A stretch of 9,743 bases of DNA. Source: Acidothermaceae bacterium (GTDB lineage: Bacteria > Actinomycetota > Actinomycetes > Acidothermales > Acidothermaceae). The DNA is taken from contig JAICLV010000096.1 of the NCBI GenBank assembly GCA_025925185.1, forward strand, positions 1 to 9,743, given 5' to 3'. Below, piece after piece: positions 3-9,128 of the stretch. Every line of letters begins with the position of its first letter. Positions within the stretch are counted from its first letter, which is position 1. Position numbers and translations under genes: made by a program. The notes under the pieces are model-generated. The model did not search any database. It had not been told where the DNA came from and saw nothing but the letters and a program-made list of their open reading frames with translations.

Positions 3-581
3 GCCGAGCGGCTCGCCGCCGAAGAAGCCGCCCGCGCCGAATCAGAGCGCCTGGAAGCCGAACGCCTCGAAGCCGAACGCCTCGAAGCCGAACGGTTGGC
101 CGCGGAACGGTTGGCCGCGGAACGGGCCGAGGCGCAGCGCATCCTCGCAGCGGAACAACTCATGGCTGCCCAGGCGGCCGAAGCGGCTGCCGCGGAAGAG
201 GCTGCCGCCGCTGAGGCGGCCGCGCGCGCCGCGGAGGAGCAGGCGGCGGCGGAGGAGGCCGCCCGACTCGCGGCCGTCGACCCCGGACACCTGGCCTCCG
301 CGAACGCGATGTTGGCGGAGTTCAGTCGCACCGGTGCCACGACGCTGACGCAAGAGGAGGCAGACGCCGAAGCCGCGGAGGCCGAGGAGGAAGATCCTTA
401 CGACGCGCTTCCGCAGCCGATCGTTCAGCGTGACCTCACTGACACCGCCTCGCTGCTCCGCGAGTTGTCGAGCCTCGGATTCGAAGACGAGCCGTCGAGC
501 CCGCCGATTCGTCCGCCGGTTAGCGCACGCCCAGTCACCGCGGCAGCGCCGAAGAAGAAGCGTGGCCTGTTCGGTCGCTGA
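3..581 (+). CDS. Ala/Glu-rich coiled-coil protein of unknown function (5'-truncated)
   Basis: The frame is open from the window edge to TGA at 579-581, so the true start lies upstream; 192 residues are visible. The first half is almost entirely Ala, Glu, Arg and Leu in a pattern that should form a long charged helix or coiled coil. It includes five tandem pentads (LEAER x3, then LAAER x2). A middle Glu/Asp-rich acidic stretch, a segment containing [10 protein letters not shown], a Pro-rich linker and a very basic end (KKKRGLFGR) follow. I see no enzyme motif, signal peptide or membrane segment in the visible part. dtd begins 20 bp downstream on the same strand, so the two are probably cotranscribed. 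I do not recognise the family. A scaffold or cell-envelope/cytoskeleton-associated role would be a guess from composition only. Confidence 0.75.
51..125 (+). repeat. 15-bp tandem repeat encoding [10 protein letters not shown] pentads
   Basis: Five consecutive in-frame 15-bp units: three encode Leu-Glu-Ala-Glu-Arg (51-95) and two encode Leu-Ala-Ala-Glu-Arg (96-125). Units within each subtype are nearly identical at the nucleotide level, which suggests recent slippage or unequal exchange inside the coiled-coil gene. Because the unit is a multiple of three, copy number can vary without breaking the frame. Confidence 0.85.
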
Positions 582-2869: not shown

Positions 2870-5800
2870 GTGGGCGTCGCGTTCTCGGTGCTCGGCCACG
2901 TGTCGGCGAACATCGACGGCGTCGAGGCCGACCTTGGCGCGCCGAAGATGCGGTCGGTCCTCGCGCTGCTCCTGATGCATCGCGGCGACGTGGTGTCGGC
3001 CGATCGGCTCGTCGACTCGCTTTGGCCGGGCGACGCGCCCGCGACCGCCTACGGGACGCTCCAGTCCTACCTGTCGAACCTGCGACGCCGGCTGGAACCC
3101 GACCGGAAGCCGGCGGCCGACAGCATCTTGCGCCACCGGACCGGCGGCTACCTGCTCGCCGCCACACCCGACCAGGTCGACGCGTCAAGGTTCGAGCGAC
3201 TGCTACAGGGGGCGGCGCAGATCGGCGAGCCGACCCGTCGACGCGAGATGCTCGTCGACGCGCTCGCGTTGTGGAAAGGCCCGGCGTACGGCGACCAGCA
3301 AGCCCAGCCGTGGGCCGAGGCGGAGATCGCGCGGCTCGACGGGCTGCGGCAGGTAGCCCGCGAGCAGTTGCTCGATTCCAGGCTCGCCTGTGGGGAGTCG
3401 GCCGTGCTGGTGCCCGAGCTCGAGAATCTGGTCGCCGACCAGCCGCTCCGCGAAGAACGTTGGCGCCTGCTGGTGTTGGCCCTCTACCGGTCGGGGCGCC
3501 AGGGCGACGCGCTCGCTGCGCTACGCCGCGCGCGAGCGCTGCTCGCCGACGAACTGGGCCTCGATCCCGGCCCGGCCTTGCGCGCCCTCGAAGCCGAGGT
3601 GCTGTCACAGTCGCCCTCGCTCGACACCCCGGCGCCGATCGCCACCGTCGTCCAACCGGCACGCCGACCGCCGTCCGTCTCAGCGCCGCCCGCGCGCAGC
3701 GCGTCGTCCGAAGCCGACCTTCTCGTCGACCGCGACACCGAACTCACCCAACTGCGAGCCGCTTTCGACTCCGCCGTCGCCGGCGACTCCCGCGCCGTGC
3801 TGGTCGAAGGGCCCCCGGGCATCGGCAAGAGTCGGCTGCTCGCCGAATTGCGCGCGCTGGCCACTGCGTCAGGCACCACGGTCTGCTCAGCGCGGGGAAG
3901 CGAGATGGAACGCGAGTTCGGCTTCGGCGTCGTCCGGCAGTTGTTCGAACCACTCTTGCGCGACGCATCGCGACGGGCGCGACTCTTGGCCGGATCGGCG
4001 GCCTCGGCGGCGCTCGTCTTCGACGCGGCGGCGCACAGTTCAGCAGTCGCCGACGCCCTTGAAGCACCGCGCGGCGATGTTTCCTTCGCCGCGTTGCACG
4101 GGCTTTACTGGCTGACGTCCAATCTCGCAGAGGACGCGCCGCTCGTCCTCGCCATCGACGACCTGCACTGGTGCGACACCGCGTCGCTTCGGTTCCTCGC
4201 GTATTTGGCGCATCGGCTTGAAGGGCTACCGATACTGGTCGCGGCCACGCTGCGCACCGGCGAAACTCGTCCCGACGACGCGCTTCTCGCCGAACTCACG
4301 CACGATCCGAGCTTGCTCGTCGTCCGGCCGACGCTGTTGACGCTGGACGGCGTCACCGAACTCGTGCGCACGCGCCTCGGGAGCCCGACCGACCCGTCGT
4401 TCGTGACAGCGTGCCATCAGACGACGTCTGGAAACCCCTTGCTGTTAAGGCAATTGCTCCGCGCACTTGAAGCCGACGGCATCCGGCCCGACCGCACGCA
4501 CGCCGACACCGTCACGGCCATCGGCTCTCGTGCGATCTCAAGCATGGTGTTGATGCGATTGCGAAAGCTCTCCACCGCCGCCGTGACCACAGCCCGCGCG
4601 GTCGCGGTGCTCGGCGACGGCGCGCAACTCCCCGTCGTAGCCGCGTTGGCCCAACTTTCCGAGGACGACGTGAACACCGCGATCGCGGCGCTCGTTCGAA
4701 TCGAAGTCGTCCGCGCCGAATACCCCTTCGGATTTGTGCACCCGCTGGTGCGCGACGCGGTGTATCGAGACCTCACACCGGGCGAGCGCGAGTTGCAGCA
4801 CGAACGCGCGGCACATGTGCTCTCGGAATCCGGCGCGTCCCCGGAACAGGTGGCCGCGCATCTGTTGCAGGTGCCGCGGCGGGCGTCGCAGTGGGTGGTC
4901 GACACCCTCGTCGAGGCGGCTCACCGCACGGCCGACCGAGGCGCGTTACCAAGCGCGGTCGCGTACCTCGCGCGGGCGCTCGAGGAGCCGCCGGCACCCA
5001 CGCGGCGCGCCGACCTGTTGCTCGACCTCGGCTGGTATGAGTCTTTCGGCGACGGCCCGGCCGCGGTCGAGCATCTGCGAGCCGCGTACGTCGACCTCAC
5101 CGAGCCGACCCGGCGGCAGACCGCCGCGACGACCCTCGCGCGGCTCCTCGTCTTCGCCGGCGCCCGCGGCGAAGCGGCCGACTTCGCACGTCGAGCGGCC
5201 GCCGAACTGCCGGCGGACGCGTCCGACGTCCGGCAGGGGCTGCTCGCACTCGAGCGCATCAGCCATTACATGCACGGCCTCGAGCGGCAAACCTGGAGCG
5301 ACGAGCAGGAGCCCCCGATCAGCGGCGACGGGCCCGGTGCCCTGATGCTGGCAGCGCAGGTGGCTTGGGACATCACGATCGCGGGCGGACGCCGCGAGCG
5401 CGCCGCCGGGCTGGCCGCGTTTTCCTTGCAGGACGGCAAGCTTCAGCGCATCGACACCGGCCTGTTGCCGATCGTCGCGGCCGTCGTCCTGGAGTTGGCA
5501 GACGAGGATGTCGGCTCGTTTTGGGACGACGCGCTGGCCGACGCGCACGCGCGCGGCTCGATGTTCGCCGCACTCGCCGCACACCTGTGGCGCGGCTACC
5601 ACCTCTGGCGCACCGGCGACCTGCGGGAGGCGCAGCAATCGTTGCTGACCTCGATCGAGCAAGCGGAGCAGTGGGGCAATCCGACGATCGGCGTTCCCTA
5701 CGGCGAAGCGTTCACCGTCGAGGTGCTGCTCGACCGCGGCGACATCTCTGGTGCGCGCCAATTCGTCGACGACCGGCCGGCGCGCCTCCGCGTCGGCGAC

Positions 5801-6490
5801 GGCTTGCGGCTGTTTCGGGAGTCGGTGGCGGCGCTCCTCCTCGCCGAAGGCCGCCCGTCAGAAGCGCTAGCCGAGCTCGACGCCATCCGGCAGTTGCAGC
5901 ACGGCGTGGTCAACCCGGTCTGGCGGCCGTGGCGATCGCTGCGCGCGCGGGCATTGGCGGCCAGCGGCCGGTCGAGCGAGGCGGTCGAGCTGGTCCGCGC
6001 GGAACTCACGCTGGCCCGCGCGTGGGGAGCGCCGCGGTTGACCGGGCGCACGCTGTGGCTGCTCGGCGAGCTCCTCGACCGCGCCGGCCTCGACGGCCGC
6101 GCTGAAATCCAGGAGGCCGCAGGGCTGCTCGCCACCACGTCCGCCCGGGTCGACTACGCGAGGGCATTGCTGTCGTTGACGCGACTCACATCGGGTGCCG
6201 CGCGCGAGGCTCAGCTGTTCGAGGCGCTAGAACTCGCCGAGAAGTGCGGTGCCGACGGACTGCGAGCCGACGTCGCCGCCGCGCTTAGGGCTGACGGCCA
6301 CGAGGTCGCCGAGCGGCCCAGCGGCGCCGTCACGCTGACGACGACCGAACGCCGCATCGCGGCGATGGTTGACAGCGGCGCCGACGTCCGGGAGATCGCG
6401 CAGGCGCTGTTCCTCACGCCGCGCACTGTCGAGATCACTCTCGAGTCGGTGCGCAGCAGAGTCGCCTCAAGCCTTGACTCAAGCGCTTAA
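2870..6490 (+). CDS. Large SARP-LAL regulator (wHTH-BTAD-ATPase-LuxR HTH)
   Basis: A 1206-residue cytoplasmic regulator of the type that activates specialised-metabolism genes. Domain order: OmpR-type winged helix (about 3-98, with TLQSYLSNLRRRLEPD as recognition region); bacterial transcriptional activation domain (about 104-250, beginning DASRFERLL); a Pro/Ala-rich linker (250-283); a STAND/AAA ATPase with Walker A GPPGIGKS (314-321) and Walker B LAIDDLHW (427-434); a long Ala/Leu/Arg-rich helical region resembling TPR-type sensor repeats (about 600-1120); and a C-terminal LuxR-type HTH (LTTTERR at 1156 through REIAQALFLTPRTVEI). Start GTG 2870 follows a GGAGG. Two in-frame TTA leucine codons lie at 4445 and 4946. 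TCAAG heptamers at 11-bp spacing straddle its stop codon just before the FAD oxidoreductase, the probable target. Ligand and regulon are unknown. Alternative label: AfsR/SARP family transcriptional regulator. Confidence 0.95.
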   Translation: MGVAFSVLGHVSANIDGVEADLGAPKMRSVLALLLMHRGDVVSADRLVDSLWPGDAPATAYGTLQSYLSNLRRRLEPDRKPAADSILRHRTGGYLLAATPDQVDASRFERLLQGAAQIGEPTRRREMLVDALALWKGPAYGDQQAQPWAEAEIARLDGLRQVAREQLLDSRLACGESAVLVPELENLVADQPLREERWRLLVLALYRSGRQGDALAALRRARALLADELGLDPGPALRALEAEVLSQSPSLDTPAPIATVVQPARRPPSVSAPPARSASSEADLLVDRDTELTQLRAAFDSAVAGDSRAVLVEGPPGIGKSRLLAELRALATASGTTVCSARGSEMEREFGFGVVRQLFEPLLRDASRRARLLAGSAASAALVFDAAAHSSAVADALEAPRGDVSFAALHGLYWLTSNLAEDAPLVLAIDDLHWCDTASLRFLAYLAHRLEGLPILVAATLRTGETRPDDALLAELTHDPSLLVVRPTLLTLDGVTELVRTRLGSPTDPSFVTACHQTTSGNPLLLRQLLRALEADGIRPDRTHADTVTAIGSRAISSMVLMRLRKLSTAAVTTARAVAVLGDGAQLPVVAALAQLSEDDVNTAIAALVRIEVVRAEYPFGFVHPLVRDAVYRDLTPGERELQHERAAHVLSESGASPEQVAAHLLQVPRRASQWVVDTLVEAAHRTADRGALPSAVAYLARALEEPPAPTRRADLLLDLGWYESFGDGPAAVEHLRAAYVDLTEPTRRQTAATTLARLLVFAGARGEAADFARRAAAELPADASDVRQGLLALERISHYMHGLERQTWSDEQEPPISGDGPGALMLAAQVAWDITIAGGRRERAAGLAAFSLQDGKLQRIDTGLLPIVAAVVLELADEDVGSFWDDALADAHARGSMFAALAAHLWRGYHLWRTGDLREAQQSLLTSIEQAEQWGNPTIGVPYGEAFTVEVLLDRGDISGARQFVDDRPARLRVGDGLRLFRESVAALLLAEGRPSEALAELDAIRQLQHGVVNPVWRPWRSLRARALAASGRSSEAVELVRAELTLARAWGAPRLTGRTLWLLGELLDRAGLDGRAEIQEAAGLLATTSARVDYARALLSLTRLTSGAAREAQLFEALELAEKCGADGLRADVAAALRADGHEVAERPSGAVTLTTTERRIAAMVDSGADVREIAQALFLTPRTVEITLESVRSRVASSLDSSA

Positions 6491-6507
6491 CAAGCTTTCC
6501 TCAAGCG
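6467..6507 (+). promoter_or_regulatory. Putative SARP operator: TCAAG heptamer direct repeats at 11-bp spacing
   Basis: Heptamers TCAAGCG (6479), ACAAGCT (6490) and TCAAGCG (6501) start exactly 11 bp apart; a further TCAAGCC begins at 6467. SARP proteins characteristically bind direct heptamers (TCGAG/TCAAG-like) repeated at 11 or 22 bp, with the 3' copy 8 bp upstream of the -10. Exactly 8 bp after the last copy is CAGCCT (6516-6521), which keeps the key A2 and T6 of TANNNT. The array overlaps the last codons of the regulator gene and precedes the oxidoreductase gene, so it probably drives that gene. Binding is inferred from geometry only. Confidence 0.5.
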
Positions 6508-6543
6508 GTATCACGCAGCCTCCTTCTCGACTCAAGAATCCCG

Positions 6544-6549
6544 AGGAGG
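6544..6549 (+). promoter_or_regulatory. Strong Shine-Dalgarno of the FAD oxidoreductase gene
   Basis: AGGAGG lies 9 nt before ATG 6559. It is one of the best Shine-Dalgarno sequences in the window and implies efficient translation of the oxidoreductase once transcribed. Confidence 0.8.
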
Positions 6550-6558
6550 ACAACCAAC

Positions 6559-7944
6559 ATGACCGCAGAACTCACCCTGTCCCACGTCCACCAGCAAACG
6601 ATCCGCAACCTGTGCGGCGGCGCCGTACACCTGCCCGGAGACCCGGGATACGACAACGCCCGGCTGCCGTGGGCGATGAGCGTCGACCAGCGACCGGCCG
6701 CCGTGATGTACCCGGCGAGCGCCGAGGAGGTCGCGGACGTCGTCCGCTTCGCGGCGGACGCAGGCTTGCGGGTGGCCCCACAAGGAACCGGCCACAACGC
6801 CGGCCCGCTCGGGCCCCTCGATGACGTCATCTTGTTGCGCACGTCGGCGATGACCAGCGTGACCATCGACCCGGTGGCCCGCATCGCGCGCGCCGAGGCT
6901 GGCGCGTTGTGGCTCGACGTCGTCGAGGCGGCCTCGAAGTACGGCTTCGACGGCCTGCACGGATCGTCGCCCGACGTCGGCGTCGTCGGCTACTCCCTCG
7001 GAGGCGGCATCGGCTGGTTCGCCCGGCAGTACGGCCTGCAGACGAACAGCATCACCGCCGTCGAGATCGTGCTTGCCGACGGCTCGCTGGTGCGGGCCGA
7101 CGCGGCCCACCACACCGACCTGTTCTGGGCGCTGCGCGGCGGTGGCGGCAACTTCGGCGTGGTCACCGCATTGGAGTTCAAGCTCTACCCGATCGAGACC
7201 GCCTACGCCGGCATGCTGGTCTGGGACTGGTCGCACGCTCACGAGGTGCTGTCGCGCTGGGCCGCGTGGGCGGTGGACGCTCCCGACCTGATCACGACGT
7301 CCTTCCGGATCTTGCAGATACCGCCGCTGCCGTCGGTGCCCGAGCCGATGCGTGGCCGCAAGATCGTGATGATCAACGGCGCGGCGCTGTGTTACGACGA
7401 GGAGGCCGCGGCGATCCTGGCGCCACTGCGCGAGCTCGCGCCGGAGATCGACACCTTCAGCCGGGTGCCCGCCGTTTCGCTGTCGCGGTTGCACATGGAC
7501 CCCGAAGGCCCGACGCCCGGCGTGTCCGACACCGCGATGCTGCGCGAGCTGCCTCCCGAGGCGATCGAGGCCTTCCTCGCGGTCGCCGGACCGGACTCCG
7601 ACTCGTGCTTGGTGGCTGCGGAGTTGCGCCAACTTGGCGGGGCACTCGCGCGGGTGCCGCGTGGCGCCGGGGCATTGACCCACCTGGCGGGCCAGTTCCA
7701 GCTCTTCGGCGTCGCGATCGCGCCGACCCCGGAGATGGCGGCCGCCGGTCATGCGCACGCGAGCCGGTTGGTTTCGACCATGCGGCCGTGGCACGCCCGG
7801 CAGCAGTACCTGAACTTCGTCGAGAAGGCGGTCGACACCAGCACCGGCTACGACGAGTACAGCTGGTTGCGGCTGCGCGAGCTTCCCGCCCGCTTCGACC
7901 CCGACGGCCTTTTCGTCGCGAACCATCGGCTGGTGCGGAAATGA
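6559..7944 (+). CDS. FAD-binding oxidoreductase, berberine-bridge (BBE) type
   Basis: A 461-residue flavoenzyme of the PCMH/VAO superfamily. The N-terminal FAD-binding domain (about 45-210) contains GTGHNAG, whose His79 matches the histidine that binds FAD covalently. It continues with SPDVGVVGYSLGGGIGWFAR (137-156), YGLQTNSI, LADG and ALRGGGGNFGVVT. The C-terminal BBE domain (about 415-461) has YLNFVEKAVDTSTGYDEYS and FDPDGLFVANHRL. In bicovalent members a second bond comes from Cys in a CPTVG-like motif; here that position is Ser137, so a single His-FAD bond is expected. There is no signal peptide, so it is probably cytoplasmic. Relatives oxidise sugars, alkaloids or polyketides with O2; the substrate here cannot be read from sequence. 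It lies 68 bp after the SARP-LAL regulator on the same strand, behind a putative SARP operator, suggesting a tailoring or detoxifying step under its control. Confidence 0.93.
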   Translation: MTAELTLSHVHQQTIRNLCGGAVHLPGDPGYDNARLPWAMSVDQRPAAVMYPASAEEVADVVRFAADAGLRVAPQGTGHNAGPLGPLDDVILLRTSAMTSVTIDPVARIARAEAGALWLDVVEAASKYGFDGLHGSSPDVGVVGYSLGGGIGWFARQYGLQTNSITAVEIVLADGSLVRADAAHHTDLFWALRGGGGNFGVVTALEFKLYPIETAYAGMLVWDWSHAHEVLSRWAAWAVDAPDLITTSFRILQIPPLPSVPEPMRGRKIVMINGAALCYDEEAAAILAPLRELAPEIDTFSRVPAVSLSRLHMDPEGPTPGVSDTAMLRELPPEAIEAFLAVAGPDSDSCLVAAELRQLGGALARVPRGAGALTHLAGQFQLFGVAIAPTPEMAAAGHAHASRLVSTMRPWHARQQYLNFVEKAVDTSTGYDEYSWLRLRELPARFDPDGLFVANHRLVRK

Positions 7945-8039: not shown

Positions 8040-8071
8040 GGTGGGACACGAGGAAGGAGGTGGTCCGAAGA

Positions 8072-8110
8072 ATGTGTGATAAACGGACTCGTGAGGTGGC
8101 TGTCAGCTAG
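8072..8110 (+). CDS. 12-codon mini-ORF at the 5' end of the candidate RNA
   Basis: ATG 8072 to TAG 8108-8110 encodes MCDKRTREVAVS. A strong Shine-Dalgarno (AAGGAGG, 8054-8060) lies upstream with a rather long 11-nt gap. The stop codon forms the first bases of stem I of the following RNA, so a translating or stalled ribosome would compete with that stem, as in attenuation leaders. A GAGGTGG at 8093-8099 repeats the Shine-Dalgarno region inside the ORF, and GTCCG (8063-8067) can pair with CGGAC (8084-8088), which would enclose the start codon. Translation is plausible but unproven. Confidence 0.35.
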   Translation: MCDKRTREVAVS

Positions 8111-8260
8111 CCGCCGTCCGACCGGACGTGCTTCCATGCCGACGCCTGACGGCGCTGGCTAATCCACGACAGTCATCCGACCCCCGGGCGCCGGACTTCG
8201 TCCAGCCGGCCCGCTCGCACCGGCATCGGCGCGAGCGGAGCAGCCCGGGGGTCGCACCAT

Positions 8261-9023: not shown

Positions 9024-9029
9024 ACGATA
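9024..9029 (-). promoter_or_regulatory. Putative -10 element for leaderless small TM gene/nitrobindin mRNA
   Basis: TATCGT on the - strand fits TANNNT and is separated by 7 nt from ATG 9016, placing the transcription start on the A of the start codon. This would be the promoter for the TM-protein/nitrobindin pair, downstream of the sseC terminator. No convincing -35 is visible. Confidence 0.45.
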
Positions 9030-9071
9030 CCGCCGGCGGGCGCGCATCCCTGCCGTCGCGGCCGGATTACC

Positions 9072-9088
9072 CGTTGCGCCCGGCAACG
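9072..9088 (-). terminator. Second small hairpin in the sseC downstream region
   Basis: CGTTGC (9072-9077) and GCAACG (9083-9088) pair perfectly around GCCCG. It abuts the larger hairpin at 9088-9128 and may be a tandem terminator for the sulfurtransferase/sseC operon. Confidence 0.4.
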
Positions 9089-9128
9089 CAAGCGGTCCCC
9101 CGCGACAAACGCGCGAGGGACCGCTTGC
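9088..9128 (-). terminator. Strong hairpin terminator after sseC
   Basis: GCAAGCGGTCCC (9088-9099) and GGGACCGCTTGC (9117-9128) form a perfect 12-bp stem; the loop can add CGCG/CGCG around ACAAA. It begins 10 bp beyond the sseC TAG on the - strand, the classical place for a terminator. As is usual in high-GC actinomycetes there is no T-run. It separates the sulfurtransferase operon from the TM-protein/nitrobindin pair. Confidence 0.8.

Follow-up and report, generated by a model that had tools for sequence, protein, structure and literature searches.

In the DNA analysed here, a window of 9743 bases, positions 6479-6521 very probably form a SARP-dependent promoter that serves an FAD-oxidase gene and is bound by the SARP-LAL regulator encoded next to it. 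The initial annotation had already read this site as a SARP operator for the adjacent regulator, and this reading is supported by all 19 same-strand pairs of the two genes.

Both genes are located on the + strand with 68 bp between them. The regulator gene (2870..6490) encodes 1206 residues from a predicted GTG start at 2870 that was picked by aligning relatives. Pfam matched the Trans_reg_C winged helix (PF00486) and BTAD (PF03704) in its N-terminal SARP part, AAA_16 (PF13191) in its ATP-binding LAL half and, weakly, GerE at the C-terminus (25.0 bits for a cut-off of 23.5, with only positions 2-42 of the 57 of the model covered). The N-terminus also matches the solved chains of AfsR and EmbR in the PDB, in agreement with the initial description of the upstream protein as carrying a SARP winged helix and BTAD. 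Relatives of this regulator are abundant, since 2980 of 7995 scored candidates were matched at E <= 0.001. The predicted target gene (6559..7944, + strand) encodes an FAD_binding_4 oxidase of 461 aa, identified by Pfam and by PDB matches. Its likeness to the mitomycin radical oxidase 9r43 (residues 25-457 of 461, 244 bits) and to EncM chains (residues 21-457 of 461, about 185 bits) extends over nearly the whole protein and is known by sequence only. Among known systems, the BagI/FevR SARP and the BagK/FevA1 FAD oxygenases are also matched, by the N-terminus of the regulator (112.6 of 500 bits) and by the oxidase (350.9 of 800 bits) respectively, both far below the NCBIfam cut-offs, as is the match of the regulator to the AfsR model. 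A compound-sensing switch that produces an oxidase is thus a fair guess and no more.

The neighbours of the gene pair encode a D-Tyr-tRNA deacylase, YgfZ, Fur, a THAP4-type heme-binding protein and a rhodanese-fold protein. YgfZ and the nearest regulators were found on contigs of equal size (P0126/P0005 on 131738 bases, P0127/P0003 on 7285 and P0131/P0004 on 7240), and these contig pairs suggest that gene order around the pair is kept in near relatives. An open frame with alanine/glutamate-rich repeats (ERLEAERLEAERLAAE...) lies at the start of the window (3-300). Just downstream of the oxidase, the Rfam family Ms_IGR-5 (RF02471, 113.6 bits) was matched at 8046-8260 on the + strand, including a 12-codon frame at 8072-8110 (MCDKRTREVAVS) behind GGAAGGAGG; apart from this downstream match, no Rfam family was found at the regulator/oxidase junction at gathering scores.

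Three predicted SARP heptamers are found on the + strand of the junction, TCAAGCG at 6479..6485, ACAAGCT at 6490..6496 and TCAAGCG at 6501..6507. Direct reading confirmed the exact 11-bp period that had been claimed for them (6479-6490 = 11, 6490-6501 = 11), although only CAAG is constant within the heptamer, the first base being variable. In the register of the CGGCAAG heptamer, the window copies read ACTCAAG, TAACAAG and TCCTCAAG, without the full consensus. The spacer GTATCACG (6508-6515, + strand) separates the third heptamer from CAGCCT (6516..6521, + strand), a predicted -10 element of the form xAxxxT that starts 8 bp past 6507, as had been described. A further copy, TCAAGCC, was read as expected at 6467..6473 (+ strand), 12 bp before the first phased heptamer and thus 1 bp off the 11-bp phase, and its role is uncertain. 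TCAAGAA is likewise present at its annotated position (6532-6538, + strand); it lies 31 bp from 6501 and out of phase, so it is probably not part of the operator and was dropped as an operator copy. Of note, CTTGACTCAAG at 6473-6483, which overlaps the first heptamer, is a perfect 5-1-5 palindrome.

This layout equals a published rule for SARP promoters, in which the repeats are 11 or 22 bp apart and the 3' repeat stands 8 bp from the -10 (PMC10936776). The match to the SARP paradigm noted at first holds for both distances, the -10 being judged by its A2 and T6. The transcription start is predicted at 6528..6530 (+ strand), from the -10 and from the centre of the AfsR box at -29.5 given in PMC10936776. 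The oxidase has a likely ribosome-binding site, GAGGAGGA, at 6543..6550 (+ strand), which lies between the -10 and the ATG that follows it by 37 bp; this distance is 25-36 bp in most other junctions. In three of the 19 junctions (L003, L137, L020) the ATG follows the -10 by 6-7 bp, and at the PhoD-like look-alike of L135 it does so by 7 bp, while a GTG stands at 5 bp in L004; the short -10-to-ATG distances of L003, L137, L020 and L135 are as would be expected for leaderless mRNAs. A search for sigma-70 consensus promoters found none at 6350-6700, and says little as the shuffles likewise contained none. The promoter and terminator scan that included this search found nothing, with none to 0.3 hits expected.

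We infer that binding, activation and gating would proceed as follows. Two or three SARP winged-helix domains would sit next to each other along one face of the DNA, each bound to an 11-bp CAAG repeat. The downstream CAAG pair would occupy the -35 position and offer a docking surface to sigma region 4 of RNA polymerase, and transcription would then start from the weak CAGCCT element near 6528-6530. Gating of the SARP part presumably falls to the AAA/TPR part, in response to a signal.

The kind of operator is already known. The likeness to AfsR at afsS comprises the 11-bp direct repeats, the 8 bp between the 3' repeat and the -10, a weak -10 (the afsS CACTGT fits xAxxxT) and a box lying on the spacer and -35, the -35 of the window being possibly poor as well; in contrast, the window has a CAAG core instead of the afs box, an oxidase instead of afsS as target, a regulator with a putative C-terminal GerE remnant and an operator that extends into the regulator gene (PMC10936776). 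The window operator also resembles that of PimR, the archetype SARP-LAL, which binds three CGGCAAG heptamers with 4-bp spacers before pimM (PMC5930380). Both systems have a SARP-LAL and three heptamers with 4-bp spacers and a common CAAG core, and L020 even carries CGGCAAG twice together with CGGCAAT, but the CGG- is mostly replaced in the junctions studied here. According to PMC5930380, the PimR operator does not overlap the -35, unlike that of the window at 8 bp from the -10, and PimR is without a LuxR HTH and has as its target pimM, a PAS-LuxR gene in a polyene cluster.

The reading is supported by the junctions of related gene pairs. A scan of genome contigs (80 loci listed) and genome searches gave 19 distinct same-strand pairs, window included. 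Apart from the window, ten belong to the Geodermatophilus sabuli family (L006, L010, L090, L097-L099, L101-L104) and eight come from Dactylosporangium (L003, L016), the family of G006, which is the genome of L016 (L137, L138), Hamadaea (L004), the order of G004 (L089), Agromyces (L009) and Solirubrobacter (L020). Regulators are 41-56% identical to that of the window in the best tblastn segment, and oxidases 50-62%. BTAD was found in 17 of the 19 same-strand regulators; the winged helix of L020 is under the cut-off, tblastn matched the SARP part of L104 in a segment of its own, and the L138 contig begins at residue 320 of the regulator, past the SARP part.

A composite rule, derived from the first reading of the window and from nine junctions viewed by eye, asks for a pair of CAAG cores at a distance of 11 bp, with one mismatch at most across the pair, and for xAxxxT exactly 8 bp after the second heptamer. 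It describes 19 of 19 distinct same-strand junctions, with A2 and T6 at the same spacing in each, and it had been fixed before nine of these (L097, L098, L099, L101, L102, L103, L104, L137, L138) were read. The initial annotation had proposed as a check that loci with both genes should conserve the heptamer phase, and this was so in all 18 other junctions, which are distant orthologues; ten of the 18 belong to one family, so that the independent lineages are fewer, and ten representatives were taken for them. In these representatives, with one Geodermatophilus member, CAAG is invariant in the first copy of the pair and CAA in the second, the A2 and T6 of the -10 are also invariant but by selection, and the third CAAG copy 11 bp upstream is half kept. 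The divergent pair L021 (Frankia), whose regulator has BTAD, fits the rule as well. The other divergent pair, L013 (Thermoleophilaceae, BTAD present), shows GCAA cores at 11-bp steps and fits only with 2 mismatches. Finally, in L015 an LAL without SARP domain stands alongside an oxidase that is 46% identical, and no site was found there even with 2 mismatches.

Closer relatives were seen as proteins only. P0002-P0006, 81-86% identical, end in SSPNSSA, SSLDSSA, SSLDSSA, SSAASP and SSLNSSA, ends that are compatible with TCA-AGC pairs but no proof of them. No orthologue of 81-86% identity was among the 80 loci listed from the scan of genome contigs. In parallel, none of three genomes from the order of G197, whose YgfZ is the closest (71%) of 246 sampled genomes, matched P0005 at E <= 1e-100.

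SARP heptamers are alike between members of the family. A true SARP operator that is mainly used by another SARP of the cell would fit this likeness, and the other SARPs of the cell are uncountable from one contig. This explanation is nevertheless improbable, because the operator accompanies the gene pair in every same-strand case and is not found next to the LAL of L015, which has no SARP domain.

The operator, which the neighbouring SARP-LAL would bind in the preferred reading, runs into the coding end of the regulator. In the window, the closing codons are TCA AGC CTT GAC TCA AGC GCT TAA. The first two heptamers had been described as coding; this stands for the phased copy at 6479, and for the extra copy at 6467, but not for that at 6490, which begins on the last base of the TAA stop (6488-6490) and is non-coding. 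In the Geodermatophilus family the CAAG pair and the -10 are both located inside the regulator frame. Ser-Ser over the operator is written TCA-AGT in nine of the nine Geodermatophilaceae junctions that encode Ser-Ser there, although both codons rank with the least used ones for serine in the genes concerned (chance 0.0001-0.0021 each), the nine loci being related by ancestry and so not nine independent events. L103 encodes Ala-Ser over a GCAAGT copy, and in the window each TCA-AGC has a chance of 0.018. As the operator overlaps the last codons and the stop codon, the final residues of the regulator would be partly dictated by operator DNA.

The C-terminal end of GerE was scanned in the window, L003, L006, L013, L015 and L020. 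In the window the match breaks off at position 42 of the 57 in the model, in L003, L013, L020 and L015 it runs to 53-55, and no GerE match was listed by the domain scan for L006, which has the operator. We infer that the last helix of GerE may have given way to the operator, a loss that binding by the SARP part would make tolerable, PimR itself being without a LuxR HTH (PMC5930380). The opposite assignment, in which the C-terminal LuxR-type domain, GerE, binds the repeats, could draw on the perfect palindrome at 6473-6483 and on the weak GerE match of the regulator. It is more improbable still, since the other junctions, as judged by eye, keep direct CAAG repeats and not the palindrome, GerE is shortened in the window and unlisted in L006, and the site is absent from L015, whose GerE match (53.5 bits) is the best in the set scanned and which has no SARP.

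What is unusual at the junction is the phased arrangement, not the abundance of heptamers. When one mismatch is allowed, TCAAGCG is found 40 times in the window, no more often than expected (40.2). The exact triplet CAAG-N7-CAAG-N7-CAAG occurs once, on the + strand, and is absent from the - strand; 5000 dinucleotide shuffles of the 200 bases at 6359-6558 never contained it, nor did 100 shuffles of the whole window, in which the + strand was scanned. Of 500 shuffles of the window region, one contained the CAAG pair (<=1 mismatch) followed by the -10, and the composite site is unique in the window on both strands, even with 2 mismatches allowed. Least credible is the explanation that the repeats are due to chance or coding and have no regulatory role, the oxidase being read through from the regulator promoter: genes on the same strand 68 bp apart would allow an operon, and the one-mismatch pair alone occurs in 11.6% of the window-region shuffles, but phase and -10 spacing are kept both where the site is coding (Geodermatophilaceae, L009) and where it is non-coding (L003, L016, L020, L089, L137), as well as in L021, where the divergent genes make read-through impossible.

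Both spacings of the proposed SARP operator were specific in control scans of 19 junctions, here 17 same-strand and 2 divergent ones. The 11-bp lag was seen in 18 of the 19, and none of the other lags between 6 and 24 was shared by more than 5. A2/T6 stood at spacing 8 in 18 of the 19 and at other spacings in at most 2, except for spacing 19, which was found in 7 loci and equals 8+11, one extra repeat from triplets. Shuffles of each region gave the composite in 0-0.4%. It occurred 22 times in 361,946 strand-bases (20 loci), 18 of them at oxidase promoters (17 same-strand and L021). The four remaining sites precede a PhoD-like gene (L004:9024), a second FAD oxidase (L009:8881) and a frame starting GTG AGC TAC ACC (L101:6481, read further in L140), or lie by the regulator start, pointing away from it (L020 minus 3943). 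Among 23 further loci, sites were present in L005, L007, L008, L086 (= L021), L135, L136 (= L003), L137 and L138 (two), and L019 and L025 had single one-mismatch sites without such a gene setting. L005, L007, L008 and L135 are SARP-LALs without an adjacent oxidase, yet carry the site; L001, L002 (same record as L139) and L088, complete SARP-LALs that also lack an adjacent oxidase, showed no site in the available flanks.

The one-target circuit suggested at first therefore holds only for what the window shows, since some relatives have second composite sites (L004, L009, L101/L140, L138). A second FAD oxidase follows the oxidase in L009, L006 and L010. The next gene has its own operator-like site, clean in L009 (8860-8990) and L140 (430-475) and degenerate with 2 mismatches in L006 (8970-9030) and L010 (9010-9060). 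In L004, the PhoD-like gene (Pfam 31.4 bits; 9024-9091) has the composite site in front, as does a frame in L135 (4425-4475) whose N-terminus is similar by eye, and one L138 site (3851) is at the contig end. At three Streptomyces loci (L005:10090, L007:10009, L008:10088), composite sites on the two strands cover nearly the same bases, and in L005 and L007 a second SARP-LAL match lies close by.

The exact composite pattern gave 48 matches in 13 genomes, compared with 5 for the reversed pattern. Junction sites made up 11 of the 48, the junctions of G006 and G094 being uncounted owing to one mismatch. For the 30 matches recovered as loci, PWM scores were 21.5-31.4 at ten junctions (two of them in the PWM) and 13.6-21.8 at twenty non-junction matches, one of which reached 26.8 (L121). 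With the PWM of the ten representatives, left-out sites scored 11.4-25.1 vs 13.6-26.8 for non-junction matches, and this overlap means that the sequence score alone cannot sort sites genome-wide. Five non-junction matches have CAAGTATCCG in common. The L121 site (1500-1531) stands 32 bp before a 250-aa ORF, possibly a further target or chance.

Two aspects are new: the SARP-LAL/oxidase unit that is widely kept, in distantly related actinobacteria too, and its operator, which in the window as well as in Geodermatophilaceae runs into the coding end of the regulator and is accompanied there by rare serine codons and a GerE that is shortened or undetected. No paper on this regulator/oxidase pair was among the matches listed, which comprised titles and abstract openings and covered few subscription journals. 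To our knowledge, relatives of the regulator are mostly without known targets, and the composite rule read beside such a regulator would name its target together with the likely start site. An operator class of Streptomyces antibiotic clusters is thereby extended to loci of Geodermatophilus, Dactylosporangium, Hamadaea, Agromyces, Frankia and Solirubrobacter, and it offers a clear example of an operator whose bases are partly those of the end of the gene for its own regulator. We tentatively propose, as a possibility rather less likely than its opposite, a widespread actinobacterial two-gene switch outside the recognised antibiotic clusters, in which the SARP-LAL would sense a compound, the FAD enzyme that it activates, similar to mitomycin radical oxidase, would remove it and the operator-written tail would replace the last helix of a dispensable GerE domain. 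If true, the operator would have moved into the 3' coding end of its regulator in several lineages.
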